Part shown: piece after piece, positions 12,970 through 26,680 of the stretch | Position numbering within the stretch: position 1 is the first letter of the stretch | Layout: the number at the start of each line of letters is the position of its first letter | Source: Lentzea tibetensis | Lineage (GTDB): Bacteria > Actinomycetota > Actinomycetes > Mycobacteriales > Pseudonocardiaceae | Direction: 5' to 3' | DNA: 64,000 nt | Assembly: GCF_007845675.1 (NCBI RefSeq) | Contig: NZ_VOBR01000010.1 | Span: 179,530 to 243,529 of the forward strand | Translations under genes and position numbers: made by a program | The notes under the pieces: generated by a model | The model's database searches: none | Seen by the model: the letters and a program-made list of their open reading frames with translations, nothing else | What the model was told of the DNA's origin: nothing

Positions 12970-14523
12970 ATGAAACGTGCGGTTGTGCTGGCGGTGGCGA
13001 CACTCCTGATGACCACCGGAACCGCGGTCAGCGCGGAGAGCAAGTACATACATCTCGGTCCGGACGGCAAACTCGTCTACGTCCCCTATTCCAACGGGGA
13101 CCGAATCCCCGACTTCTCCCGCGCCGGATACGGCGGCGGAGGCGTCGCGCTGCCGGAGGCGCCTGTCAGGCAGACGGTCACCCCGGCGAGCGGCGACGAC
13201 GGCGCCCGCATCCAGCAGGCGATCAACGCGGTGAGCGCGCTGCAGCCGGACTCGTCCGGACTGCGCGGCGCGGTGCTGCTGAAAACGGGCGTGTACGAGG
13301 TGGCGGACGCCGTCACGATCAGGACGAGCGGTGTCGTCCTGCGCGGCGAGACCGGCACGGTGATCAAGGCGACCGGCACGAAGGTGCGCAGCCTGATCAA
13401 CCTCAGCGGCGTGGACAACCGCAAGGAGGTGGCGGGGACGCGCAAGGCCATCACGGCGAGCTACGTGCCCGTCGGCACGCACCGGATCAAGGTGTCCGAC
13501 GCGTCCGGGTTCAAGCCGGGTGACGACGTCGTGGTCGTGCGCACCCCGAACCAGCAGTGGGTGGACGCGACGGGCACGGACTCCTGCTCCACCAAGGGTA
13601 CGTCGTACGACACGTCCGATGTGGATGGTGTCACTTGCCTGTCCGGCACGGCGTGGACGCCTGCCGCGCGCACCATCCACTACGAGCGCCGCGTGACCGC
13701 CGTGTCCGGCAACGAGATCAGCGTCGACTCCCCTGTCGTCGAGGCGATCCAGTCCGAGTTCGGCGGCGGCGCGGTCTACCGGTACACCTTCGCGGGCCGC
13801 ATCCAGAACGTCGGCGTCGAGAAGATCGCGGCCGAGTCGGCGTTCTCGTCGGCCACCGACGAGAAGCACGCGGACAAGATGATCTCGCTGTCCGCCGTGG
13901 CGAACGCGTGGGTGCGCGACGTCAGCTCCCAGTACTTCAGCCAGGGCACGTTCTACGCGTCCGGCAAGTCGAAGCACGTGACGGTGCAGGACTCGAAGTC
14001 GCTGGACCACAAGTCGCGGATCACCGGCGGCCTGCGCTACCCGTTCCACCTGGGTGACGCCACTCACGTGCTGGTGATGCGCTCGCTCGCCAGCACCGGC
14101 AGGCACGACTTCGTGACCGGCTCGAACACCCCCGGCCCGAACGTGTTCCTCGACAGCCGCGGTGAGCAGTCGCACTCCGAGCTCGGGCCGCACCACCGGT
14201 GGGCGACCGGCGGCCTGTTCGACAACGTCGTGCACAGCAGCGTCAACGGCAACCAGATCCTCGGCGCCTACAACCGCGGCAACTACGGCAGCGGCCACGG
14301 CTGGTCAGGCGCCTACCAGCTCTTCTACAACTGCACGGGCGACAAGCACAAGCTGGCCAGCCCGCCGCACGCGCGGAACTGGTCCATCGGCACGAAGTCG
14401 AAGTCCCGCGAGGGCAACGGCGACTTCGACTCGCACAACACCCCGGTGACGCCGAGGAGCCTCTACCTGCAGCAGCTGCAGGACAGGTCGGGCCCCTCGG
14501 CGTTGCGCAACATCGGGTACTAG
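12970..14523 (+). CDS. Secreted right-handed beta-helix (pectate-lyase-like) protein
   Basis: This 517-residue protein has a signal peptide (MKRAVVLAVATLLMTTGTAVSA) with cleavage near residue 22. The N-terminal motif GDRIPDFSRAGYGGGGVALP is typical of one group of secreted parallel beta-helix proteins. Residues of about 75-460 carry the spaced I/V-rich turns of a pectin-lyase fold (for example LKTGVYEVADAVTIRTSGVV). It probably binds or cleaves an acidic polysaccharide outside the cell; I cannot identify catalytic residues. GGAGAG lies 6 nt before the ATG. Its stop overlaps the stop of the minus-strand SLATT gene in a shared CTAG. Confidence 0.82.
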   Translation: MKRAVVLAVATLLMTTGTAVSAESKYIHLGPDGKLVYVPYSNGDRIPDFSRAGYGGGGVALPEAPVRQTVTPASGDDGARIQQAINAVSALQPDSSGLRGAVLLKTGVYEVADAVTIRTSGVVLRGETGTVIKATGTKVRSLINLSGVDNRKEVAGTRKAITASYVPVGTHRIKVSDASGFKPGDDVVVVRTPNQQWVDATGTDSCSTKGTSYDTSDVDGVTCLSGTAWTPAARTIHYERRVTAVSGNEISVDSPVVEAIQSEFGGGAVYRYTFAGRIQNVGVEKIAAESAFSSATDEKHADKMISLSAVANAWVRDVSSQYFSQGTFYASGKSKHVTVQDSKSLDHKSRITGGLRYPFHLGDATHVLVMRSLASTGRHDFVTGSNTPGPNVFLDSRGEQSHSELGPHHRWATGGLFDNVVHSSVNGNQILGAYNRGNYGSGHGWSGAYQLFYNCTGDKHKLASPPHARNWSIGTKSKSREGNGDFDSHNTPVTPRSLYLQQLQDRSGPSALRNIGY

Positions 14524-16133
14524 CGCCCGTAGCGGAAGACGGTCTCGACCTCGGTGACGAACGTGACGAGCTGCTCGTCGTCCACGTCCTCCGGGGTCGG
14601 GCCGTCGGCCGCGAGCTTCTGCAACGAGGTGACCGTCGCCGAGTACTCGCGGGCGAGCCTGCGGAACCCGAACGTCGACTCGTAGGCGGCCACAGCCGTT
14701 GCCAGCGCGGCGAAAGCCGTGGCGAGGAACGCCCACAGTGGACGCCGCGGCCCGTCGGCCATGCCGATCGCCCCGAACGCGGCCGCGCTGATGAACAGCG
14801 TGGCCGTCATCGCGACCGTCCACGTGCGCGCCGCCGCGTACCGCGACCTGCCCCGCTCGAAGTGCTCGAGACGGTCGTGGAAGCGGTGCCTCAGGTAGGC
14901 CTGGACGAACTGGGCCTGCCGCTGCTTGGTGCCTCCCGCGGGCCTCGGTGCCTGCCTGCTGGGTGCCGGCGGGGCGGTGGTGTGCGGAGGTGCCACGTGG
15001 AAGCCGCCCGTGTGCGGGCCTGCGGCGTGCTGACCGGCCGCGTGCTGAGGCGTGTGCTGGCCGGGGGACTGACCGGCCGCGTGCTGCGGCGTGTACGGGG
15101 CGGTGGGCTGACCAGGTGCGGGGATGCCGCGCGGGGGCGTCCGGAGGTCGGTCGCCCTCGGGCCTGGTGCGTGGCCGCCGGTGGTGTGCGGGCCTGGGCC
15201 GCGGAGCTCCGCCCCGACGGGAGCGGATCCCGGGGTGCCGGCGGGAGCGCGGGTACCGGGGGCGCCAGGTCCGCGAGAGCCAGCGCCGGACGGACCCGCC
15301 CCAGTGGAGGCTGGCTCGGCAGGAGCAGCTCCGCGGGAGCCGGTCTCAGCAGCAACTCCGCGAGAGCTGGCCTCAGCAGCGCCAGATCCGCGGGAGCCGG
15401 CCTCGGAGGCGCCAGGACCACTGGTCCCAGCCTCAGAGGCACGTGAGCCGGCCTCGGCAGGAGCAGCTCCGCGGGAACCGGCCTCAGCAGCGCCAGGCCC
15501 ACGTGAGCCTGCCTCAGCGGCACCAGATCCACGAGAACCAGCGCCAGCAGGGCCAGATCCGCGGGAGCCGGTCTCAGCAGCGCCGGGCCCGCGGGACTCG
15601 GCTGCAGCCGAGCTGGTCGCCGAGGTGTCACCGGCTCGTCGAACACCGGACACCGGCCGGGTGATGACGGTCTTGGCCTCAGCCGCACTGGTCGCGGCCG
15701 CGGTGGCCCTGGTGGCCGGGGACTTGGTGTCAGCAGCCTTGGTCTGCGCGGGCTTGCTTTCGGCGGCCGCGGGCTTGGTGTCGGCAGCCTTGTTTGCGGA
15801 CTTGCTCTCGGCAGCCTTGGCCGCCGGCTTGGTGTCGGCAGCACTCGCGGCAGTCGTGGACTCGGCCTCGACGTCGTCGGCCTTGTCGGCGCCGTCGGCC
15901 TTGCTGTCCGAGACCTCGGCATCCGAGGTCTCGGTGCCGGAAGCCTCAGTCGCTTCGGTCTCCGCGGCCTTGGGGTCCGCGGCCTCCTTGCTCGCCGGCT
16001 TCGCGCCGAACGCCTTGGCCACAGCCCTCTTAGCAGCGGAGGCACGAGTCTTGGGCGCGCTCGTCTCCTCCGCACCAGCGGCGGCGTCCGCGTCCTGCGC
16101 GGCCTCCGCCGAGGTCCCCTTGCGCTCGCTCAC
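14520..16133 (-). CDS. SLATT/DUF4231-type membrane protein with long disordered repeat N terminus
   Basis: This 537-residue protein is bipartite. Residues 1-400 are low complexity, rich in Ala, Lys, Glu and then Ser-Arg-Gly. They include five consecutive 10-residue repeats at 181-230 (form RGxGAAEAGS) and a His/Gln/Pro-rich stretch near 340-390. The C-terminal 140 residues are a SLATT-like helical domain with two membrane segments (TVAMTATLFISAAAFGAIGM and LWAFLATAFAALATAVAAYE) and a cytoplasmic tail helix (REYSATVTSLQKLAADG). SLATT proteins are predicted to form membrane pores or sensors in nucleotide-signalled conflict systems. The GTG start at 16133 overlaps the upstream SLOG-SLATT stop as GTGA, so the two are one unit. 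Confidence 0.8.
   Translation of the reverse strand: MSERKGTSAEAAQDADAAAGAEETSAPKTRASAAKRAVAKAFGAKPASKEAADPKAAETEATEASGTETSDAEVSDSKADGADKADDVEAESTTAASAADTKPAAKAAESKSANKAADTKPAAAESKPAQTKAADTKSPATRATAAATSAAEAKTVITRPVSGVRRAGDTSATSSAAAESRGPGAAETGSRGSGPAGAGSRGSGAAEAGSRGPGAAEAGSRGAAPAEAGSRASEAGTSGPGASEAGSRGSGAAEASSRGVAAETGSRGAAPAEPASTGAGPSGAGSRGPGAPGTRAPAGTPGSAPVGAELRGPGPHTTGGHAPGPRATDLRTPPRGIPAPGQPTAPYTPQHAAGQSPGQHTPQHAAGQHAAGPHTGGFHVAPPHTTAPPAPSRQAPRPAGGTKQRQAQFVQAYLRHRFHDRLEHFERGRSRYAAARTWTVAMTATLFISAAAFGAIGMADGPRRPLWAFLATAFAALATAVAAYESTFGFRRLAREYSATVTSLQKLAADGPTPEDVDDEQLVTFVTEVETVFRYGR
15264..15593. repeat. 30-bp tandem repeats coding for 10-residue units
   Basis: Five units of exactly 30 bp (15444-15593) encode the repeating decapeptide RGxGxAxxGS in the SLATT gene. 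Less regular units of 27-30 bp continue to about 15264. The copies differ mainly by single substitutions and keep frame. Confidence 0.75.
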
Positions 16134-17365
16134 GGTCGCACCACCTCGTGCCTGCGGTCGGACACGGCAGTCTCCAGGTCGCGCACGTTGTCCTGCCGCT
16201 CCTCGTCATCAGCGGGAGCGGGAGCGGCGAGGTGCGCGAAGTACAGGGCACGCAACCGCTCCGCACGCGCGCGGGCGGTGAGGTACCGGTCGAGTGACTC
16301 GCGTTTGCGAGCCACGATCGTGATGACGGCGGCGAAAGCGCCGCCTGCGACGACGAGCACGCCAGGCCACGGTGTGTCGCGCAGCCACGTCTGCAGTGCG
16401 CCGAACGTGGTGGTCGCCAACCCGCCCGCGATGGCGAGAACGGTGAGCAGCCGGTACCGGTTCTGCTCGCGCTCGGCCTCGGCGTCGAGCTCGTGGAACA
16501 CCGGTGCGACGACCTGGTTGGCGTCGTGGATCGCGTCGGCCAGCGCCGGGTACGCGACGACGAAGCCGGGGTCGACGAGCGGGCGCTGCTCGGGGGTCCT
16601 GAAGCGCAGCCGCGGCCACACGGGTGGCGGGGGCGTGCGCGGGGAGTCCTTGCCCAGCAACCGTTCCAGCTCGCCGACGATCTTCTCGGCGCCCTCGTCG
16701 ACGTGCACGACGTGGACCTTGCCGCTGCGGACCAGCACGGCGAGGTCGCCGGTGATGTTGCCGGTCGCGATGCGGTCGGCGAGTCCCGTGGTGCCCGCGA
16801 TGACGAGCAGCGGGTTGTCGCCGCCGAGGTGGTCGACGACGCAGGTCTCGGCGATCGACTCACCGCCGACCAGTACCGCGACCACGGGACGCTTGCGGCG
16901 GATGGCGTCCACGGTGCGGAAGTAGACCGGTGTCGCGTCCGTCCACTCGGAACCGGGCACGACGATGGCGACGTCGTGATTGGACTCGAGTTTCACCTCG
17001 CCGTTCGCGGGTGGCGCGTCCTCCGTCGCCACCTTGCTCGACGGCACGACGCCGACGCTGAACGGCCAGCGCAGCTCGCACGCTTCGAGCGCCATGCCGA
17101 AGAGGTGCACGACGCCGCGGTCGGCGCCCTCCGTGACGAACGCCGCGTCGTGCCGGGACGCGCTGACGACGACGGATCTCAGCACTGGAAGTAGGTTCGC
17201 GGCGAGATCCGTCCCAATGTCCTCTGTGGTGCCGAACAACGCGACCACCGTGCGGCCTCGGGGAAGTCCGAGGGAGCGGGGCCGGATGTCGGCGTCCGGC
17301 TGGGCAAGCCGTTTGACCGTTGGGCCGCCTGCTTTGGGCATGGGGCGCACCATAACGGCCATCAT
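16130..17365 (-). CDS. SLOG (LSDAT-type) nucleotide-sensor fused to SLATT membrane domain
   Basis: This 411-residue protein has an N-terminal Rossmann-like SLOG/LSDAT domain, about residues 30-235: RGRTVVALFGTTEDIGTDLA, then FVTEGADRGVVHLFG and RKRPVVAVLVGGESI. LSDAT domains, related to TRPM and LOG proteins, are thought to bind NAD-derived or other nucleotide ligands. Residues of about 260-400 form a SLATT region with two membrane helices (LLTVLAIAGGLATTTFGALQ and GVLVVAGGAFAAVITIVARK) and a following charged helix. It is translationally coupled to a second SLATT gene. No clear SD precedes ATG 17365, and ATGs at 17353 and 17341 are alternatives. The function as nucleotide-gated membrane effector is a published prediction for the families, not shown here. 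Confidence 0.82.
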   Translation of the reverse strand: MMAVMVRPMPKAGGPTVKRLAQPDADIRPRSLGLPRGRTVVALFGTTEDIGTDLAANLLPVLRSVVVSASRHDAAFVTEGADRGVVHLFGMALEACELRWPFSVGVVPSSKVATEDAPPANGEVKLESNHDVAIVVPGSEWTDATPVYFRTVDAIRRKRPVVAVLVGGESIAETCVVDHLGGDNPLLVIAGTTGLADRIATGNITGDLAVLVRSGKVHVVHVDEGAEKIVGELERLLGKDSPRTPPPPVWPRLRFRTPEQRPLVDPGFVVAYPALADAIHDANQVVAPVFHELDAEAEREQNRYRLLTVLAIAGGLATTTFGALQTWLRDTPWPGVLVVAGGAFAAVITIVARKRESLDRYLTARARAERLRALYFAHLAAPAPADDEERQDNVRDLETAVSDRRHEVVRP

Positions 17366-17465: not shown

Positions 17466-18848
17466 ATGACCTCGATCGACCCCGGACAGTTGGACATCTG
17501 CCTGCGCGTGCTGGCGGAGGTCGAGGAGCTGCCTGCCGAACACCCGGACGCGGTCCGCGTGCGCCTCGCGACGGCGCGGATCTTCAAGGCCGCGAAGAAG
17601 TTCCGCAAGTCCGAACGGCGTGCGGCGGTCACCGAGGCCGACCGCGCTGTGACCGCGCTCACCGCCACCGGCTCGCCGGAGCGCATCGACGACGAGACCC
17701 AGGGCCTGCCACTGGTGTCGAACTCACCCGGCGCCTCCGCGGGCACGCTGCTGCGTGCGCGTTCCTGTTACACGTGCCGCAAGAGGTACGTCGAGGTCGA
17801 CGCGTTCTACCACCAGCTGTGCCCGGCGTGCGCGAAGTTCAACCACGCCAAACGAGACGCGCGCACCGACCTCTCCGGACGGCGGGCGCTGCTCACCGGT
17901 GGCCGCGCGAAGATCGGCATGTACATCGCGCTGCGGCTGCTGCGTGACGGTGCCCACACCACCATCACGACCCGCTTCCCGAAGGACGCCGCGCGCCGGT
18001 TCGCGTCGATGCCGGACGCGCCGGAGTGGCTCGACCGGCTGCGGATCGTCGGCATCGACCTGCGCGACCCGGCGCAGGTGCTGGCGCTGTCGGACTCGGT
18101 CGCCGAGCAGGGCCCGCTCGACATCCTCATCAACAACGCGGCGCAGACAGTGCGCCGCTCCCCCGGCGCGTACGCCCCGCTCGCGGCGGCCGAGTCGACG
18201 CCGCTGCCGTCCGGGCCGATGCCGGAGATGATCTCGTTCGGCGGCCTCGGCCAGCTCGCGCTGCCCGGCACGGCGGTTCCCGAGGCGCACGCGGTGACGA
18301 CGCTGGCGTTGATGGCGGGCTCGAAGGAGATCGACGCGGGCGGTCTGGTGCCGGACCTGCACGACGTGAACAGCTGGACGCAGCGGGTGGACGAGGTCGA
18401 CCCGGTCGAGCTGCTCGAGGTGCAGCTGTGCAACATGACGACGCCGTTCCTGCTGGTCTCGAAGCTGCGACCGGCCATGGCGGCGGCGAAGGCGCGCCGC
18501 AAGTACGTGGTGAACGTGTCCGCGATGGAAGGCCAGTTCAGTCGCGTCTACAAGGGCTCGGGGCACCCGCACACGAACATGGCGAAGGCCGCGCTGAACA
18601 TGCTGACCCGCACCAGCGCCGAGGAGATGCTGACGACCGACGGCATCCTGATGACCGCCGTCGACACCGGCTGGATCACCGACGAACGCCCGCACCCGCT
18701 CAAGATGCGGCTCGCCGACGAGGGCTTCCACGCGCCGCTGGACCTGGTCGACGGCGCCGCCCGCGTCTACGACCCGATCGTGCGCGGCGAGCTGGGCGAG
18801 GACGTGTTCGGCTGCTTCCTGAAGGACTACGCACCCGCCCCCTGGTGA
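17466..18848 (+). CDS. Zinc-ribbon SDR-family oxidoreductase lacking the catalytic tyrosine
   Basis: The 460-residue protein has an N-terminal helical part, a zinc-ribbon-like segment (CYTCRKRY near residue 101 and CPAC near 120), then an SDR Rossmann domain from about 137. The cofactor motif is LTGGRAKIGMYIA and the NNAAQT motif is intact. The usual active-site YxxxK is T370-N-M-A-K374, so tyrosine is replaced by threonine while lysine remains. It may be a binding protein or use a different catalytic residue. It starts 100 bp upstream-divergent from the SLOG gene and lies upstream of ku on the same strand, 95 bp apart. The substrate is unknown. Confidence 0.85.
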   Translation: MTSIDPGQLDICLRVLAEVEELPAEHPDAVRVRLATARIFKAAKKFRKSERRAAVTEADRAVTALTATGSPERIDDETQGLPLVSNSPGASAGTLLRARSCYTCRKRYVEVDAFYHQLCPACAKFNHAKRDARTDLSGRRALLTGGRAKIGMYIALRLLRDGAHTTITTRFPKDAARRFASMPDAPEWLDRLRIVGIDLRDPAQVLALSDSVAEQGPLDILINNAAQTVRRSPGAYAPLAAAESTPLPSGPMPEMISFGGLGQLALPGTAVPEAHAVTTLALMAGSKEIDAGGLVPDLHDVNSWTQRVDEVDPVELLEVQLCNMTTPFLLVSKLRPAMAAAKARRKYVVNVSAMEGQFSRVYKGSGHPHTNMAKAALNMLTRTSAEEMLTTDGILMTAVDTGWITDERPHPLKMRLADEGFHAPLDLVDGAARVYDPIVRGELGEDVFGCFLKDYAPAPW

Positions 18849-18943: not shown

Positions 18944-19675
18944 ATGAAGACTGTGTGGCGGGGGGCGCTGTGGCTGGGCGTCGCGAGAATCGCTGTCCGG
19001 ATGGTCACGGCGACGGAGGACCACCGGGTCCACTTCCACCTGGTGCACCGCGATGACGGCGGCCGGGTGCGGCACCACCAGGTGTGCGAGGTGTGCGGTG
19101 AGCGGCTGAGCGCGCCGGACATCGGACGCGGCTACCCGCTCGACGACGGCCGGATGGTCGTCATGGAGGACGCGGACTTCGCCGGACTGCCACCCGCCGC
19201 CGACCACGCGATCGAGGTGCGGCAGTTCGTGCCGGACGACGAGGTCGATCCGATCCTGCTGCGCCGCAGCTACTACCTCGAACCGGACGGCGCGGCCGTG
19301 CGCCCCTACATCGTGCTGCGCGAGACGCTCGCCAGGTCCGGCAAGGTCGCGGTGGCGAACATCGTGCTGCGGTCCCGCTCGACGCTGGCCGTGGTGCGCG
19401 CCCGCGGCGACCTGCTGGTGCTGCAGACGATGCTGTGGCCGGACGAGGTCCGCCCGCCCGAGTTCCCGTTCGTCGCACGGGACGTCGAGCTGCGGACCGC
19501 CGACCTGGCCTCCGCCGCGGCGCTGGTGGAGTCGATGACCAGGCCGTTCGAGCCCGCCGAGCACACCGACGACTACCGCGACGCTCTGCTGCGCACCATC
19601 GAGGCCAGGACGGCCGACCTGCCGATCCCCACCCAGTCGACCCGCTCGCCCGACCTGGTCCCCGACCCGAAGTAG
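18944..19675 (+). CDS. ku: Bacterial Ku-like DNA end-binding protein
   Basis: The 243-residue product matches the bacterial Ku core: MKTVWRGALWLGVARIAVRM, ATEDHRVHFHLVHRDDGGRV, VCEVCGERLSAPDIGRGYPL and the bridge/beta-barrel region ILLRRSYYLEPDG. Ku binds double-strand DNA ends in non-homologous end joining and normally recruits LigD. It is shorter than most bacterial Ku proteins, which have about 270-300 residues or more, and it ends with a Pro/Ser tail without the usual lysine-rich extension. No ligD is in the window. It may be one of several Ku paralogues, as is common in actinomycetes. Confidence 0.88.
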   Translation: MKTVWRGALWLGVARIAVRMVTATEDHRVHFHLVHRDDGGRVRHHQVCEVCGERLSAPDIGRGYPLDDGRMVVMEDADFAGLPPAADHAIEVRQFVPDDEVDPILLRRSYYLEPDGAAVRPYIVLRETLARSGKVAVANIVLRSRSTLAVVRARGDLLVLQTMLWPDEVRPPEFPFVARDVELRTADLASAAALVESMTRPFEPAEHTDDYRDALLRTIEARTADLPIPTQSTRSPDLVPDPK

Positions 19676-20432: not shown

Positions 20433-23303
20433 TCAGCCCGGCAGGCGCAGGACGCCCATCTCGGCGCACAGCTCGTCGGCCTGGCGCCGGTGGCGGCGTG
20501 CGACGGCGCCGTCGAGCAGGTCGGCGAGGCTGTCCAGCGCCCACGCCTGCTCGATCCGGTACTCGATGCGGGACGCGATCTCCAGCGCCCGCCGGTGCTG
20601 CACCACGGCCTCGTCGAGGCGGCCGTCGGCGCGTTCGATCGCACCGAGCACGTTGTGCGCGGTGCTCAGGTGATCGCGGCTCGCACCGTGGCCGAGCGCG
20701 GCGAACGCACGGCCCGCGAAGTCACGCGCACGCGGCAGGTCACCGGCCCTGCGCAAGGCGTCGGCGGTCTTGATCAGCCCCCGCATCGCGTAGTGCGTGT
20801 TGCCGATCGACTCGGCCAGCGCGACGCCCTCGTGCAGCAACGCCAGCGCCCGGTCGTGGTCACCGAGCCTGCTGAACGCCGCTCCCAGTCCACAGAGGAC
20901 GGATGCTTCCTCGCCGCGCTCGTTGATCTCCCTGCTGCGCACGAGCGCCGTCTCCAGCTCGACTCGCGCGGCCTCCGGATCGCCGAGTGCCAGGTGCACC
21001 CTGCCGACGTTGGCGATGCCGATGGCGACGAACCGGTGGGAGTGGATGCGCTGCTGGATCGCCAGCGCTGTGCGGTAGTGCTCCAGCGCGTCGCCGAACC
21101 GGCCGAGCCGGTGCGCCACCATGCCCAGCACGGCGAGCGTCGTGCTCTCCCGCAGCACGTCACCCAACTCCCGTGCGACGTCGAGCACCAGCCGGGCGTT
21201 CGCCTGCGCCTCCCGGTACCGGCAGCGGCTGTAGCCGATCACCGTCATGTTGTGCAGGCACGCCATCTCGGCCACCCGGTCGCCGAGCCTGCGGGCCGCC
21301 GCGAGCGCGGGTTCCTGCAGCTCGACGAGGTCGTCGAGGTGCTCACCGATGATCAGGCTGTGCCCGATGTCGCGCAGGAGCCCGCAGGTGTGCCGGTCCG
21401 ACCCCGACTCGGCGGCGTACCTGGACGCCGCGACCAGGTTCTCCCGCTCGGCGGTGAACCACGCCATCGCGGTGACGTCGTCGGGCAACGGCGGCACGTC
21501 GCCCGGCACGTCGTCGACGTCCGGCGGAATGGACTCCCTGCCCGGTTGCACGAGGTCGGCGGCGAGGTGCGCGACGTGCAGGTAGTAGTCGAGCAGCCGG
21601 TGCACACCCGGCTCCGGCCCGAGCGAGCGGGCGTACTCGCGCACCAGGTCGTGGAACGAGTAGCGGTCGCGCACGCGCCGCACCAGCAGGTGGTGGTCGA
21701 GCAGGTCCTCCAGCACTTCGCGCGCGTCGTGGAACGCGGTCCCGGCGAGCGCCGCCGCGGCGTAGAGGTCGAAGTCGACGCCGGGGTGCTGCCCGAGCAG
21801 CCGGAACATCGACTGCTGCTCGGATGTCAGGTGGTCGTACGACACCGCGAACGCGGCCAGCACGTCCCGGTCGCCCGCCTTGAGCTCCACGAGCCTGCGC
21901 AGCTGGGCACCGAGCCGCTCCACCAGGTCACCGACCGTCCATCGTGGACGGTGGGCGAGCCGGGCGGCTGCGATGCGCAGCGCGAGCGGCAGCCGTCCGC
22001 ACAGCTCGACGAGCGACGCCACCTCGTCCGGCTCCTCCGCGGCCCGCGCGCCGAGGATCTCCGCGACCAGGTCGCGCGCCTCGGACTCGGTCAGCACGTC
22101 CAGCGACAGCTGCGCGGCGCCGTCGATGACGAGCCTGCGCCTGCTCGTGACCACGGTCAGGCAGCCGGGCGCGCCGGTCAGCAGGGGGACGACCTGCTCG
22201 GCGTCCACCGCGTTGTCGAGCACCACGACCGCCCTGCGCGCGGCCATCTCGGCGCGCCAGGCGGTGATCCGCTGGTCGAGCTCGCCGGGCACGTCGGCGG
22301 GCGGCACGCCGATCGCGCGCAGCAACGTGTCCAGCGCGGCGAACGGCGACACCGGTCCACGGCCGGGAGTGAACCCGTGCAGGTCGACGAACACACGCGC
22401 GTCCGGGTAGCGATCGCCCAGCCGGTGCACGGCGTGCACGGCCAGCGCGGTCTTGCCGACACCCGCCATGCCGTCGACCACGACGACGACGGCCTCCGCA
22501 CCCAGCCGCGCCAGCTCGCCGGTCCGGCCGGTGAAGTCCGGCACGTCGAACGGCAGCGCCACCCGCGGCCGCACCGGCCGCTCGGCGGGAGTCGTTGCCG
22601 GCGAAGGAGTATCGGTGCGCAGGATGCGCTCGTGCAGCGCCCGCAGCCGCGGACCGGGGCCGATGCCCAGCTCGTCCGCGAGCAGCGCGCGGGTCTCCTC
22701 GTAGCGGCGCACCGCGTCGGCCTGGCGCCCGCAGCGGTGGAGCGCGAGCACCTCCAGCGCGACCAGTTCCTCCCGCAACGGGTGCTCCGCGACCACGGCG
22801 GACAGCTCGTCGGGCACCTCGTGGTGGCGACCGAGGTCCAGCGACTCGGCCGCCCACTTCTCCGCGACGGTCAGCCGTTCCGCGTCGACATCGGTGCCGA
22901 TGCGCAACAGCACCTCCGAGTCGCCGACACCGGACAAAGCGGACCCGCGCCACAGCCGGAGCGCGTCACGCAGTTCCTCGGGAGCGGTCGCGGCGCGCAC
23001 CAGCGCGCGGAACTCGTGCAGGTCCACGACGGACGGGTCGACGTCCAGCGCGTAGCCCGCGGAGCGACGGCTGATCGGGAACCCGGCCGGCCCCAGCACC
23101 TCGCGCAGCCGCGAGACGTGCTCGTGCACGTCATCCGGCCCAGCGTCGCCCCGCAGCGCGCCGGCCAGGCGCTCCACCGGAACGGCCTCACCCGCGTCGA
23201 GCGCGAGCATCGCCAGCAGACCTCGCCGCACCGGCGGCCCGATGGGCAGGCGCTCTCCGTCGAGCCACACCTCGACCGAACCGAGCACCCCCACACCCCG
23301 CAC
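20433..23303 (-). CDS. SARP-type regulator with NB-ARC ATPase and TPR domains (AfsR-like)
   Basis: This protein of about 956 residues has three parts. Residues 1-90 are a winged-helix OmpR-like DNA-binding domain, and residues 95-235 are a bacterial transcriptional activator domain with LREELVALEVLALHRCGRQA. Residues of about 265-600 are an NB-ARC ATPase with Walker A DGMAGVGKTALAVHAV, Walker B RAVVVLDNAVDAEQV and GRLPLALRIAA. The C-terminal 350 residues are TPR repeats (ALEHYRTALAIQQRIHSHRF). SARPs activate secondary-metabolism or stress genes. The start is taken as GTG 23303, since the domain begins within 5 residues; there is no strong SD. It is divergent from the nuclease-helicase gene across about 90 bp. 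Confidence 0.9.
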   Translation of the reverse strand: MRGVGVLGSVEVWLDGERLPIGPPVRRGLLAMLALDAGEAVPVERLAGALRGDAGPDDVHEHVSRLREVLGPAGFPISRRSAGYALDVDPSVVDLHEFRALVRAATAPEELRDALRLWRGSALSGVGDSEVLLRIGTDVDAERLTVAEKWAAESLDLGRHHEVPDELSAVVAEHPLREELVALEVLALHRCGRQADAVRRYEETRALLADELGIGPGPRLRALHERILRTDTPSPATTPAERPVRPRVALPFDVPDFTGRTGELARLGAEAVVVVVDGMAGVGKTALAVHAVHRLGDRYPDARVFVDLHGFTPGRGPVSPFAALDTLLRAIGVPPADVPGELDQRITAWRAEMAARRAVVVLDNAVDAEQVVPLLTGAPGCLTVVTSRRRLVIDGAAQLSLDVLTESEARDLVAEILGARAAEEPDEVASLVELCGRLPLALRIAAARLAHRPRWTVGDLVERLGAQLRRLVELKAGDRDVLAAFAVSYDHLTSEQQSMFRLLGQHPGVDFDLYAAAALAGTAFHDAREVLEDLLDHHLLVRRVRDRYSFHDLVREYARSLGPEPGVHRLLDYYLHVAHLAADLVQPGRESIPPDVDDVPGDVPPLPDDVTAMAWFTAERENLVAASRYAAESGSDRHTCGLLRDIGHSLIIGEHLDDLVELQEPALAAARRLGDRVAEMACLHNMTVIGYSRCRYREAQANARLVLDVARELGDVLRESTTLAVLGMVAHRLGRFGDALEHYRTALAIQQRIHSHRFVAIGIANVGRVHLALGDPEAARVELETALVRSREINERGEEASVLCGLGAAFSRLGDHDRALALLHEGVALAESIGNTHYAMRGLIKTADALRRAGDLPRARDFAGRAFAALGHGASRDHLSTAHNVLGAIERADGRLDEAVVQHRRALEIASRIEYRIEQAWALDSLADLLDGAVARRHRRQADELCAEMGVLRLPG

Positions 23304-23392
23304 CCCGACACAATAGGTCGTGCGCCCCCGGCGACATCCCGGTGCGGGCCCAATGCGCGGCCGGCCGGGGCTCATCGTGTAAGCACCTGAGC

Positions 23393-26300
23393 ATGCTCAT
23401 GAGCTCCGACGGCCTCGTGGTCTCCCCGACGGACCTCGTCGACCTGCTCGAGTGCGAGCACCGCAGCGCGCTCACGCATGCGCTGGCCTGCAACGTTCCC
23501 GACGCGCCCCGGCCGGGCTCCAGGCCGGACGCGGTGGTGACCAAGCACGGCGTCCAGCACGAGCAGAACGTCCTCGAGCAGCTCAAGGCCACCTACGACG
23601 TCGTCGAGATCGGGCAGCCCGCCCCGCACCCCGACGCGCTGCGGGCGGCCGCGAAGCAGACGCTCGACGCGTTGAACAGCGGCGCACAGGCCGTCTACCA
23701 GGCCGTCTTCTTCGACGGCAGCTTCTACGGCCGGGCGGACTTCCTCATCGCGGGCGCCGACGGCCGGTTCGAGCCGTACGACACGAAGCTGGCGCGGCGG
23801 GCGAGCCCGTCGGCCGTGCTCCAGCTGACCGCGTACGCGAGCGCGCTCGGCGAGTACGCGGGCCCGGACATGCACCTGCTGCTCGGCGACGGCACCCAGC
23901 ACACCTACCGGGTCAACGACTTCCGCCCGCTGCTGACCAGGCTGCGGCGCAGGCTCGACGAGCGGCTGGCCAAGCCCGCCCGGTTGCCGGACCGGCTGTG
24001 GGACGACGAGCGCCCGGCGTGCGCGACGTGCCGGTTCGCCCAGCACTGCGCGACCGGCCGCGACACCGGCCGCGATCTGTCCCTGGTCGCGGGCATGCGG
24101 TCCGACCAGCGGCGCAAGCTGGTGTCCGCGGGCATCGCGACGATCGACGACCTGGCCGTCGCCGAGACGCGGCCGCAGAACCTCTCCCCCAGCAGCTTCG
24201 AGTCGTTGCGCGCGCAGGCGAAGCTCCAGGTCCAGCAGGACCGCACGAACAAGATCAGCTACGAGGTCATCGGCCCGGACGCGCTGGCCGAACTGCCCGC
24301 GCCGAGCGAGGGCGACGTCTTCTTCGACATGGAGGGCGACCCGTACGTCGGGCTGGAGTACCTGTTCGGCGCGCTGACGCCGGACCGGGTGTTCACGCCG
24401 TTCTGGGCGCACGACCACGCCGAGGAGAAGAAGGCTTTCGAGTCGTTCGTCGACCTCGCGGTCGGCAGGCTCGCCGAGCACCCCGGCGCGCACATCTACC
24501 ACTACGCGCCGTACGAGCTGAGCGCGTTGAAGCGCCTCGCGGCCGTGCACGGCACGCGTGAGTCCGAAGTGGACGACCTGCTGCGCGCGGGAGCGCTGGT
24601 GGACCTGTACGCGGTGGTGCGCAAGGCGTTGCGCGTGTCGCAGCGGTCGTACTCGATCAAGTACCTCGAACCGCTGTACATGCCGTCCCAGCGCGAGGGT
24701 GACGTGAAGACGGCCGTGTCGAGCATCGAGGCGTACGAGAACTACCTCACGACGCGCGATCCCGCCGTGCTGGACGAGATCGCGGACTACAACGAGTACG
24801 ACTGCGTGTCCACCCTGGAGCTGTACCGGTTCCTGCTGCGGGTCAGGGACGAGCAAGGCATCGAGCCCGTGGTCGTCGTGCCCGACGTCGCGGTGGACGA
24901 GGTGGCGAAGCAGAAGGCGCTGGAACGCGCCGAGCAGATCGCCGCGCTGGTCGAACCGCTGATGGACGCGGGCCACGACCTGCTCGCCGCGTCCGTCGGC
25001 TACCACCGCCGCGAGACGAGCCCGGCGTGGTGGGACTTCTTCCGACAGGCCAACGCGCCGCTGTCCGATCTCGAGACCGACAGCGCGTGCGCGGTGCCGC
25101 TGTCCGTGCGGGCCGACGAGTGGGTCGAGCCGACCGGGCGGGCGAGGACCACCAAGCGCGCGCTGACGTTGCGCTGCGACCCGGACCGCCCGCACCCGTT
25201 CACGAGCGGCGAGGAGATCCGCCTCCTCTACCCCGGTCACGTCACCAGGTCCGCGAAGGTCAGCGACGACGGCCCGAGCGAGCTCGTGCTGACCGAGAGC
25301 GTCAAGCCCGGTGAGACCACCACCGAACTGCCGATCGCGGTCCTGCCCGGTCCGCCGGTGCGCCCCCAGCCGAAGGACGAGGCGGTGGCGGAGCTGGCGG
25401 AACAGGCGGTCGCGCTGCTGCCGCTGCTCCCCCAGAACCCCGGCATCGACCTGCTGCTGCGCACCCCGCCGAGGCGCGCGCTCCCTCAGGACGACGACCT
25501 GGTGCAGGCGGTGATCAAGGCGGTCGACCAGCTCGACGGCGGCACGCTCGCCGTGCAGGGACCGCCCGGCGCGGGCAAGACCTACCTCGCGGGCAGGCTG
25601 ATCACGCACCTGGTCGCGCGGGGCAAGACGGTCGGCGTCACGTCGAACAGCCACAAAGCCATCGAGAACGTGCTGGGCAGCGTCGACCCCGGCATCCCGA
25701 TCGCCAAGCGTCCCAAGGGAAAGGCCGTCGAGGACTGCGCCTGGGAACAGCCGAAGGACAACGGCGCGCTGGTCCGCTGGCGCGCCGAGCACCCCGGCGG
25801 GCACCTGGTCGGCGGCACCGCGTGGACGTTCGCGAACGCGACCCTGCGCGCCGAGCCGTTCGACGTGCTGATCATCGACGAGGCCGGCCAGTTCGCGCTG
25901 GCGGACGCCGTCGCCGTGTCGACCTGCGCGCACAACCTGGTCCTGCTGGGTGATCCGCAGCAGCTGCCGCAGGTCGTGCAGGGCACCCACCCGGCCGGTG
26001 CGGACGCGTCCGCGCTCGGGCACCTGCTCGGTGACGCGGACGTCATCCCGCCGCACCTCGGCTACTTCCTGGACGAGACCAGACGCATGCACCCTGCCGT
26101 GTGCGGGCCGGTGTCCGAGCTGTCGTACCAGGGCCTGCTGCACTCGCACCCCGTCGCGTCCACGCGCGGCGTCTCCGGCATCGACTCGGGGATCTACCTG
26201 CGCGAGGTCGACCACGAGCACAACATCACGTCGTCGGCCGAGGAGGCCGACGCCGTGGTCGACACGGTCCGCGCCCTGATGGGTCGCGAGTGGACGGACG

Positions 26301-26680
26301 GTTCGGTCACTCGCGAACTGACCGACGCCGACGTGCTCGTCGTGGCGCCCTACAACCTCCAGGTGCGGGTGACCAGGCGACGGCTGCAGAAGGCCGGGTA
26401 CGGCGACGTGCGCGTCGGCACCGTCGACCGGTTCCAGGGCCAGGAGGCACCGGTCGTGATCATGACCATGACCTCGTCGTCCGCCGTCGACCTGCCGCGC
26501 GGGCTGGACTTCCTGCTGTCGCGGAACCGCCTCAACGTCGCGATCTCACGGGCGCAGTCGGTCGCGGTGATGATCTGCTCACCGCGACTGCTGGACGCCG
26601 ACATCCGCGGAGTCGACCAGATGCGTCTGGTGGCCGGAACCATAGGCCTGATCGACCACATGCGACCGTGGCCGTTCTGA
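23393..26680 (+). CDS. TM0106-family RecB-like nuclease fused to SF1 helicase
   Basis: This 1095-residue protein combines several parts. The N terminus is a RecB-like PD-(D/E)xK nuclease (GRADFLIAGADGRFEPYDTK, about residues 115-135) followed by a cysteine cluster (CATCRFAQHC near 210). Next is an RNase-H-like exonuclease domain starting VFFDMEGDP (about 306) and ending in YNEYDCVSTLELY. The C terminus is a Dna2/Upf1-like SF1 helicase with Walker A VQGPPGAGKTYLAG near 723, DEAGQF near 828, GDPQQLPQV and TVDRFQGQEAPVVI. It likely acts in DNA repair or end processing. ATG 23393 was chosen; an upstream in-frame start at 23342 would extend into the promoter shared with the SARP gene. Confidence 0.9.
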   Translation: MLMSSDGLVVSPTDLVDLLECEHRSALTHALACNVPDAPRPGSRPDAVVTKHGVQHEQNVLEQLKATYDVVEIGQPAPHPDALRAAAKQTLDALNSGAQAVYQAVFFDGSFYGRADFLIAGADGRFEPYDTKLARRASPSAVLQLTAYASALGEYAGPDMHLLLGDGTQHTYRVNDFRPLLTRLRRRLDERLAKPARLPDRLWDDERPACATCRFAQHCATGRDTGRDLSLVAGMRSDQRRKLVSAGIATIDDLAVAETRPQNLSPSSFESLRAQAKLQVQQDRTNKISYEVIGPDALAELPAPSEGDVFFDMEGDPYVGLEYLFGALTPDRVFTPFWAHDHAEEKKAFESFVDLAVGRLAEHPGAHIYHYAPYELSALKRLAAVHGTRESEVDDLLRAGALVDLYAVVRKALRVSQRSYSIKYLEPLYMPSQREGDVKTAVSSIEAYENYLTTRDPAVLDEIADYNEYDCVSTLELYRFLLRVRDEQGIEPVVVVPDVAVDEVAKQKALERAEQIAALVEPLMDAGHDLLAASVGYHRRETSPAWWDFFRQANAPLSDLETDSACAVPLSVRADEWVEPTGRARTTKRALTLRCDPDRPHPFTSGEEIRLLYPGHVTRSAKVSDDGPSELVLTESVKPGETTTELPIAVLPGPPVRPQPKDEAVAELAEQAVALLPLLPQNPGIDLLLRTPPRRALPQDDDLVQAVIKAVDQLDGGTLAVQGPPGAGKTYLAGRLITHLVARGKTVGVTSNSHKAIENVLGSVDPGIPIAKRPKGKAVEDCAWEQPKDNGALVRWRAEHPGGHLVGGTAWTFANATLRAEPFDVLIIDEAGQFALADAVAVSTCAHNLVLLGDPQQLPQVVQGTHPAGADASALGHLLGDADVIPPHLGYFLDETRRMHPAVCGPVSELSYQGLLHSHPVASTRGVSGIDSGIYLREVDHEHNITSSAEEADAVVDTVRALMGREWTDGSVTRELTDADVLVVAPYNLQVRVTRRRLQKAGYGDVRVGTVDRFQGQEAPVVIMTMTSSSAVDLPRGLDFLLSRNRLNVAISRAQSVAVMICSPRLLDADIRGVDQMRLVAGTIGLIDHMRPWPF

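Follow-up and report, generated by a model that had tools for sequence, protein, structure and literature searches.

In this study, we report the analysis of two overlapping genes, J and I, located on a 64,000-nucleotide stretch of the Lentzea tibetensis contig NZ_VOBR01000010.1 (the window), and propose that together they encode a nucleotide-gated two-subunit membrane effector, in which a chromosome-resident unit of the order LSDAT - SLATT_3-like - SLATT_1 is split between two genes. We assign this reading a probability of about 55%. The SLOG and SLATT families to which the domains belong are reportedly founded on a paper by Burroughs et al. from 2015. The proposal draws on the domain content of the two proteins, on their linkage and shared absence in related genomes, and on the recurrence of the same three domains in other gene arrangements.

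Gene J encodes an LSDAT-type SLOG domain fused to a SLATT region, as had been read from the sequence in the original prediction, and each of the two domains passes at least one curated cut-off (the positions of all features are listed in Table 1). The LSDAT_prok match is full-length and reaches 170.7 bits (E 2.9e-50) against a curated Pfam cut-off of 25.4. The SLATT region scores 29 bits with Pfam DUF4231 (cut-off 24.7) and 42 bits with NCBIfam SLATT_1 (cut-off 41); its SLATT_3 scores are 26.1 bits in Pfam and 29 bits in NCBIfam, where the cut-offs are 26.3 and 45, and its score with Pfam SLATT_1, 19.6 bits, lies well under the cut-off of 26.3. The first of its two hydrophobic segments is the weaker one and was located by profile match and by eye. 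Possible start codons of J are M1, M2, M5 or M9.

Gene I has a single domain match, to SLATT_1, which is above the cut-off in both Pfam (36.2 bits, cut-off 26.3) and NCBIfam (49.8 bits, cut-off 41). The minus-strand junction reads GCGACC-GTGA-GCG, with the GTG start of I inside the TGA stop of J, and this confirmed the second SLATT protein that had been predicted to start within the stop of the first gene. The two genes have an offset of -4 in 27 of 29 relatives, the remaining two showing -1; in a second set of 37 loci, which partly shares members with the first, it is -4 in 35 and -1 in two. Gene I overlaps the stop of J in every case (29/29 and 37/37). Instead of genes unlinked in all relatives, a finding that would have counted against the original prediction, the pair was found to be linked throughout, and chance neighbourhood of J and I is excluded by this linkage and by their shared absence.

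Orthologues of J were detected in 30 of 150 related genomes (the present one included) and those of I in the same 30. Five further genomes of the 150 gave weak J matches only; the weak match in G120, judged by eye to be a transporter-like open reading frame (ORF), was dropped from later counts. Both genes are present in all 25 Lentzea genomes and in 22 of the 25 genomes of the Saccharothrix/Actinosynnema group (g21), the other three (G891, G892 and G900) being without both; G892 and G900 hold only a distant LSDAT gene. Within Umezawaea (g22), J was found in 3/3 genomes and I in both of the two that were searched for it. No genome carrying just one of the two genes was found among those searched for both. 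The locus nearest to the window is that of Lentzea sp. NBRC 105346 (87%), and the other 36 of the 37 loci come from Lentzea, Umezawaea, Saccharothrix and Actinosynnema, together with a single record labelled Nocardia sp. NRRL S-836, which at 76% to the window is as near as Lentzea records are. Outside these genera LSDAT_prok is rare, being detected in 4 of 394 genomes of the class (the present one included), three of them above the cut-off. A phage collection gave no match, and a plasmid collection gave two distant proteins only. In genome G905, a partial and close second J match (G905:C54:221136-221750, 332.7 bits, positions 3-205) was observed, which is either a duplicate or an assembly overlap; the full J of this genome sits near the start of a different contig.

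The case for both SLATT proteins acting as one unit appears to rest most strongly on three gene arrangements. Fused polypeptides of the order LSDAT_prok - DUF4231 - SLATT_1 were found on plasmids of Hymenobacter tibetensis (669 amino acids, aa) and Ca. Chlorohelix allophototropha (625 aa). These proteins, annotated as DUF4231 domain-containing protein, follow the order from LSDAT_prok through a DUF4231/SLATT_3-like domain to SLATT_1 that is seen across J and I, but each is a single plasmid-borne polypeptide, whereas J and I are two overlapping chromosomal genes. One scan of viral contigs revealed no relative of the Chlorohelix protein. A third arrangement was found when the surroundings of a second, distant LSDAT gene were inspected in 16 g21 genomes: at four of these loci (L216, L217, L223 and L228) the LSDAT gene is followed, at a -4 overlap, by a gene for a SLATT_3 - SLATT_1 tandem protein of 294-296 aa, with each of the two domains far over its cut-off. 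Three of the genomes concerned (G899, G910 and G904) carry J and I too, and G900 is without them. The three domains and the -4 overlap are those of J and I, but the split falls after LSDAT, whereas in J and I it falls between the two SLATTs. Because the same domains recur in the same order in fused and in differently split forms, J and I look like one three-domain machine with a shifted gene boundary. The SLATT of J fits the first-position (SLATT_3) profile better in 38/38 rows, and that of I fits the second-position profile better in 29/38; for I the position match appears moderate once the four tandem proteins are added and weak with the two fused proteins. Co-occurrence, absence from the same 3 of 25 genomes, the conserved overlap and the fused and resplit forms all bear out the predicted unit of two SLATT proteins. 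The idea that two SLATTs in one unit are a peculiarity of this locus had to be given up, as LSDAT with tandem SLATTs exists elsewhere. In the literature searched, LSDAT and SLATT occurred together in no paper, though this is no proof that the arrangement is new to the literature.

Several observations weigh against this interpretation. The fused three-domain proteins found number only two, and with these alone the position test for I was non-significant. The SLATT of I preferred the first-position profile in 8/38 rows, with one tie, and its hhalign probability was 50%. By BLAST it resembles the SLATT of J (25.9% over 116 residues, E 7.4e-5), so that I may instead be a copy of the J SLATT. The first hydrophobic segment of J has a mean hydropathy of 1.6 or less in every window sampled, the partial correlation of J and I distances given the neighbouring SDR-type oxidoreductase is 0.60 with no null for comparison, and the best TRPM match in a search of PDB with J (E 0.015) ranked behind an unrelated regulator (0.0073).

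J and I are inherited vertically and are under purifying selection. The SDR gene, which marks the site and lies outside the module, stands beside J in 29/29 relatives and in 36/37 loci (the contig of L106 begins before the SDR position), and it occurs also in genomes without J and I. Protein distances correlate at r 0.983 for J-I, 0.985 for J-SDR and 0.974 for I-SDR, calculated on 37 of 38 rows with L106 excluded. For J the median ratio of nonsynonymous to synonymous substitution rates (dN/dS) is 0.139, and for I it is 0.131, based on 24 Lentzea-group rows per gene and 276 pairs, none of which was dropped as saturated. Beyond the SDR gene, a nuclease-helicase gene is found in most loci, and the other flank of the pair is a sugar-transferase gene in most Lentzea. 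A mobile cassette was considered and rejected, given presence in 25/25 genomes of the genus, the same flanks and distances that track those of SDR. The pair looks like a stable resident part of the chromosome in Lentzea and its close relatives, and its example suggests that a module of a kind met chiefly in conflict systems can settle permanently in a chromosome. The g21 genomes without the pair keep the SDR gene and, on the far side, genes that by eye are LysR-like and aldolase-like, and the gap at the missing pair holds other genes in G892 and G900 and about 390 bases in G891. The SDR proteins of these three genomes share 92-93% mutual identity, and since that of G892 is equally close (92%) to two pair-bearing genomes, one or more losses are possible. 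When empty sites in other genera were compared, SDR alone among the window neighbours was present in 9/9 loci; with SDR as the sole common neighbour there, only the g21 absences are therefore informative.

Under the proposed mechanism, J and I would be two subunits of one membrane module, and the formation of a J-I complex is strongly suggested. The LSDAT domain carried by J would face the cytoplasm and bind a nucleotide or an NAD-derived ligand, for which an ADP-ribose-like compound might be the best guess from the TRPM relatives. Ligand binding would alter the packing of the two-helix SLATT of J against that of I in the membrane, and this repacking would open or close a permeability path; a pore is weakly to moderately suggested. 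Translation of J and I would be coupled through the 4-base overlap, and the module is a resident, vertically inherited pair in Lentzea, Umezawaea, Saccharothrix and Actinosynnema. SLATT proteins are predicted signal-gated pores, and in J and I the putative sensor is on one subunit and SLATTs are on both. With the fused and resplit forms serving as controls, the stable pair allows direct tests of both complex formation and gating.

The comparison with TRPM channels is based on the LSDAT domain, the family to which MHR1/2 of TRPM belongs (PMC13143021). ADP-ribose binding has been reported in TRPM2 MHR1/2 (PMC7555694, PMC13143021). J matched Pfam LSDAT_euk with E 3.3e-4 and 20.6 bits, under the cut-off of 25.7, and its profile gave weak matches to TRPM2, TRPM4 and TRPM5 in PDB; a TRPM-like stretch, 'vteGadrGvvhllGlal' in the J profile vs 'LTGGTHAGVMKHVGMAV' in TRPM2, is among these individually weak matches. 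Both J and the TRPM channels have an LSDAT-type domain joined to a membrane part, which in TRPM is a TRP channel domain accompanied by further MHR regions (PMC13143021) and in J is a SLATT two-helix unit. The Pfam listing for J, nine families up to E 1, included no ion-channel family and hence no TRP channel domain. A more far-reaching version is put forward tentatively and is rather doubtful: J and I would form a hetero-oligomeric channel that is gated by nucleotides, resident in one actinobacterial clade and not part of immunity. As a bacterial, SLATT-built counterpart of TRPM, this channel would make membrane permeability depend on the NAD/ADP-ribose state during ordinary physiology or development.

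The original prediction had suggested a role in defence, and the pair may indeed be an anti-phage (abortive-infection) system in which nucleotide signals set off by a phage open the SLATT pore and halt growth, its core location reflecting that the clade has kept it. We consider this unlikely, but not negligibly so. A SLATT protein is required for DRT10 anti-phage defence (PMC12632851), SLATTs are predicted effectors in conflict systems (PMC7159879, PMC9503650), and at two other actinobacterial LSDAT loci (L069 and L194) the adjoining genes have Pfam-confirmed TIR_2 domains. The pair is moreover dispensable, since 3 of 25 g21 genomes are without both genes. Nothing found beside the pair backs such a function, however. 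PADLOC gave no match for J, for I or for six of seven neighbours, and the seventh, the BTAD/NB-ARC/TPR regulator, matched three models of TPR type, the best at E 4.1e-14. No TIR gene, and thus no Thoeris-like combination of TIR and SLOG, was found in the 38 J-I loci (mostly 16-20 kb) or in the window with a small TIR profile of five sequences (E 1e-4). Vertical descent, the same site in every genome of the genus, and the results from the phage and plasmid collections also stand against it. A general link of LSDAT genes with TIR was rejected: it was seen at 4/8 distant loci, but three of those four had trained the profile, and at 1/16 paralogue loci, weakly. At L070, one of the training loci, TIR was assigned by eye and is not among the 25 Pfam rows listed. 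An actinobacterial LSDAT-DUF4231 gene at L194:478-5410 lies beside two TIR-PASTA genes, one of which also has a solute-binding domain. The LSDAT-DUF4231 protein of actinobacterium G543 has the architecture of J, but its gene is flanked by two TIR-PASTA genes and, unlike for J, no SLATT_1-type partner was found within the 9 kb examined. A SLATT membrane protein as likely effector is common to J and I and to SLATT-linked defence systems such as DRT10; DRT10 has a reverse transcriptase and a non-coding RNA (PMC12632851) where J and I have LSDAT, and the SLATT reported beside UG17 (DRT10) is SLATT_5 (PMC8934634).

Less credible still is a reading in which LSDAT is an enzyme, a nucleotide N-glycosidase or hydrolase, with SLATT helices that serve as no more than a membrane anchor and dimerisation scaffold. 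The string GGxGT, a LOG-type motif, was not seen in 12 aligned J proteins, and the retention of LSDAT together with two SLATTs in each of the three arrangements suggests a role beyond anchoring. On the side of an enzyme, the LOG clade of SLOG domains consists of enzymes (PMC9503650), and the pore function of SLATT is a literature prediction (PMC9503650, PMC7159879).

The arm of about 400 residues ahead of the SLATT domain of I, which the original prediction had treated as a feature of the system, is present in the sequence but is specific to this species. In the closest relative I is 140 residues long and without the arm, and in the other Lentzea-group loci of the 37-locus set 1-34 residues precede the SLATT; in Umezawaea, Saccharothrix and Actinosynnema the number is 2-137. 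That the arm is a working feature, a tether or spacer defining a special gate, is very improbable on these grounds, even though it is large and in frame after the conserved start of I and shorter arms are present in the sister genera; low-complexity inserts are found in the LSDAT domain of J as well. Such inserts are gained and lost across the relatives and are no mark of the system. Five Saccharothrix J proteins (L101, L104, L105, L106 and L108) have 59-179 extra low-complexity residues within LSDAT, and J inserts of at least 40 residues occur in 12 of 22 g21 genomes. The rule that a disordered segment occurs in J or I but never in both held in 38 rows and was broken by the g21 genomes G909 and G913; among the 22 g21 genomes, two have both segments, ten the J insert alone and seven the I arm alone.

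The arm contains tandem repeats with periods of 14-81 bp. It is probably translated, because conserved sequence lies in frame on either side of it, namely the start of I (VSERK here vs MSDKQ in many relatives) and the stretch behind the arm. A second frame on the same strand is open too, and a given frame stayed open in 9 of 2000 shuffles of the arm, so that the open frame is weak evidence of translation. The middle third of the arm has an unusual codon-position composition.

Table 1. Positions of genes J and I, their domains and further features in the window (the last entry lies outside it)
Feature	Position	Strand	Description
Gene J	16130..17365	-	411 aa; LSDAT-type SLOG domain and SLATT (DUF4231/SLATT_3-like) two-helix membrane domain
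LSDAT_prok domain of J	16682..17254	-	residues 38-228; profile positions 1-192 of 195
SLATT region of J	16154..16504	-	residues 288-404; hydrophobic segments about 304-326 and 333-353
Gene I	14520..16133	-	537 aa; second SLATT protein
SLATT_1 domain of I	14535..14897	-	residues 413-533, C-terminal; hydrophobic segments 440-458 and 466-484
Low-complexity arm of I	14919..16121	-	about 400 residues; Ala/Lys/Glu-rich, then Gly/Ser/Arg repeats, then Pro/His-rich
Overlap of J stop and I start	16130..16133	-	4 bases, GTGA
SDR-type oxidoreductase	17466..18848	+	divergent neighbour; marks site, outside module
Ku-domain gene	18944-19675	+	near pair
BTAD/NB-ARC/TPR regulator	20433-23375		neighbour of pair
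Large RNase_H_2/AAA helicase-type gene	23342-26680	+	near pair
Neighbour ORF	12970-14523	+	517 aa; convergent with gene I, stop bases common to both
Third SLATT-family gene	L177:8487-8996 = G000:C2 158487-158996	-	169 aa; NCBIfam SLATT_1 70.6 bits; below Pfam DUF4231 cut-off

In 22 of 38 loci, a HAD-family hydrolase gene lies between SDR and J, upstream of J and on the same strand (e.g. L085:5257-5961, plus strand); these are L073-L092, L099 and L102, which are all Lentzea-group loci of the 37-locus set bar L072. The hydrolase gene was not found at the window or at the sister-genus loci, and the operon may thus have a third gene in this lineage only. The neighbour ORF of 517 aa weakly matches a hyaluronate-lyase family (34.9 bits, cut-off 1100), and no homologue of it was found in the relatives' loci searched. 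The Ku and RNase_H_2/AAA helicase-type genes lend the neighbourhood a DNA-repair flavour. A search of the same genome also revealed the third SLATT-family gene, unlinked and about 21 kb before the window, near ORFs that by eye are acetyltransferase-like and enoyl-CoA hydratase-like.

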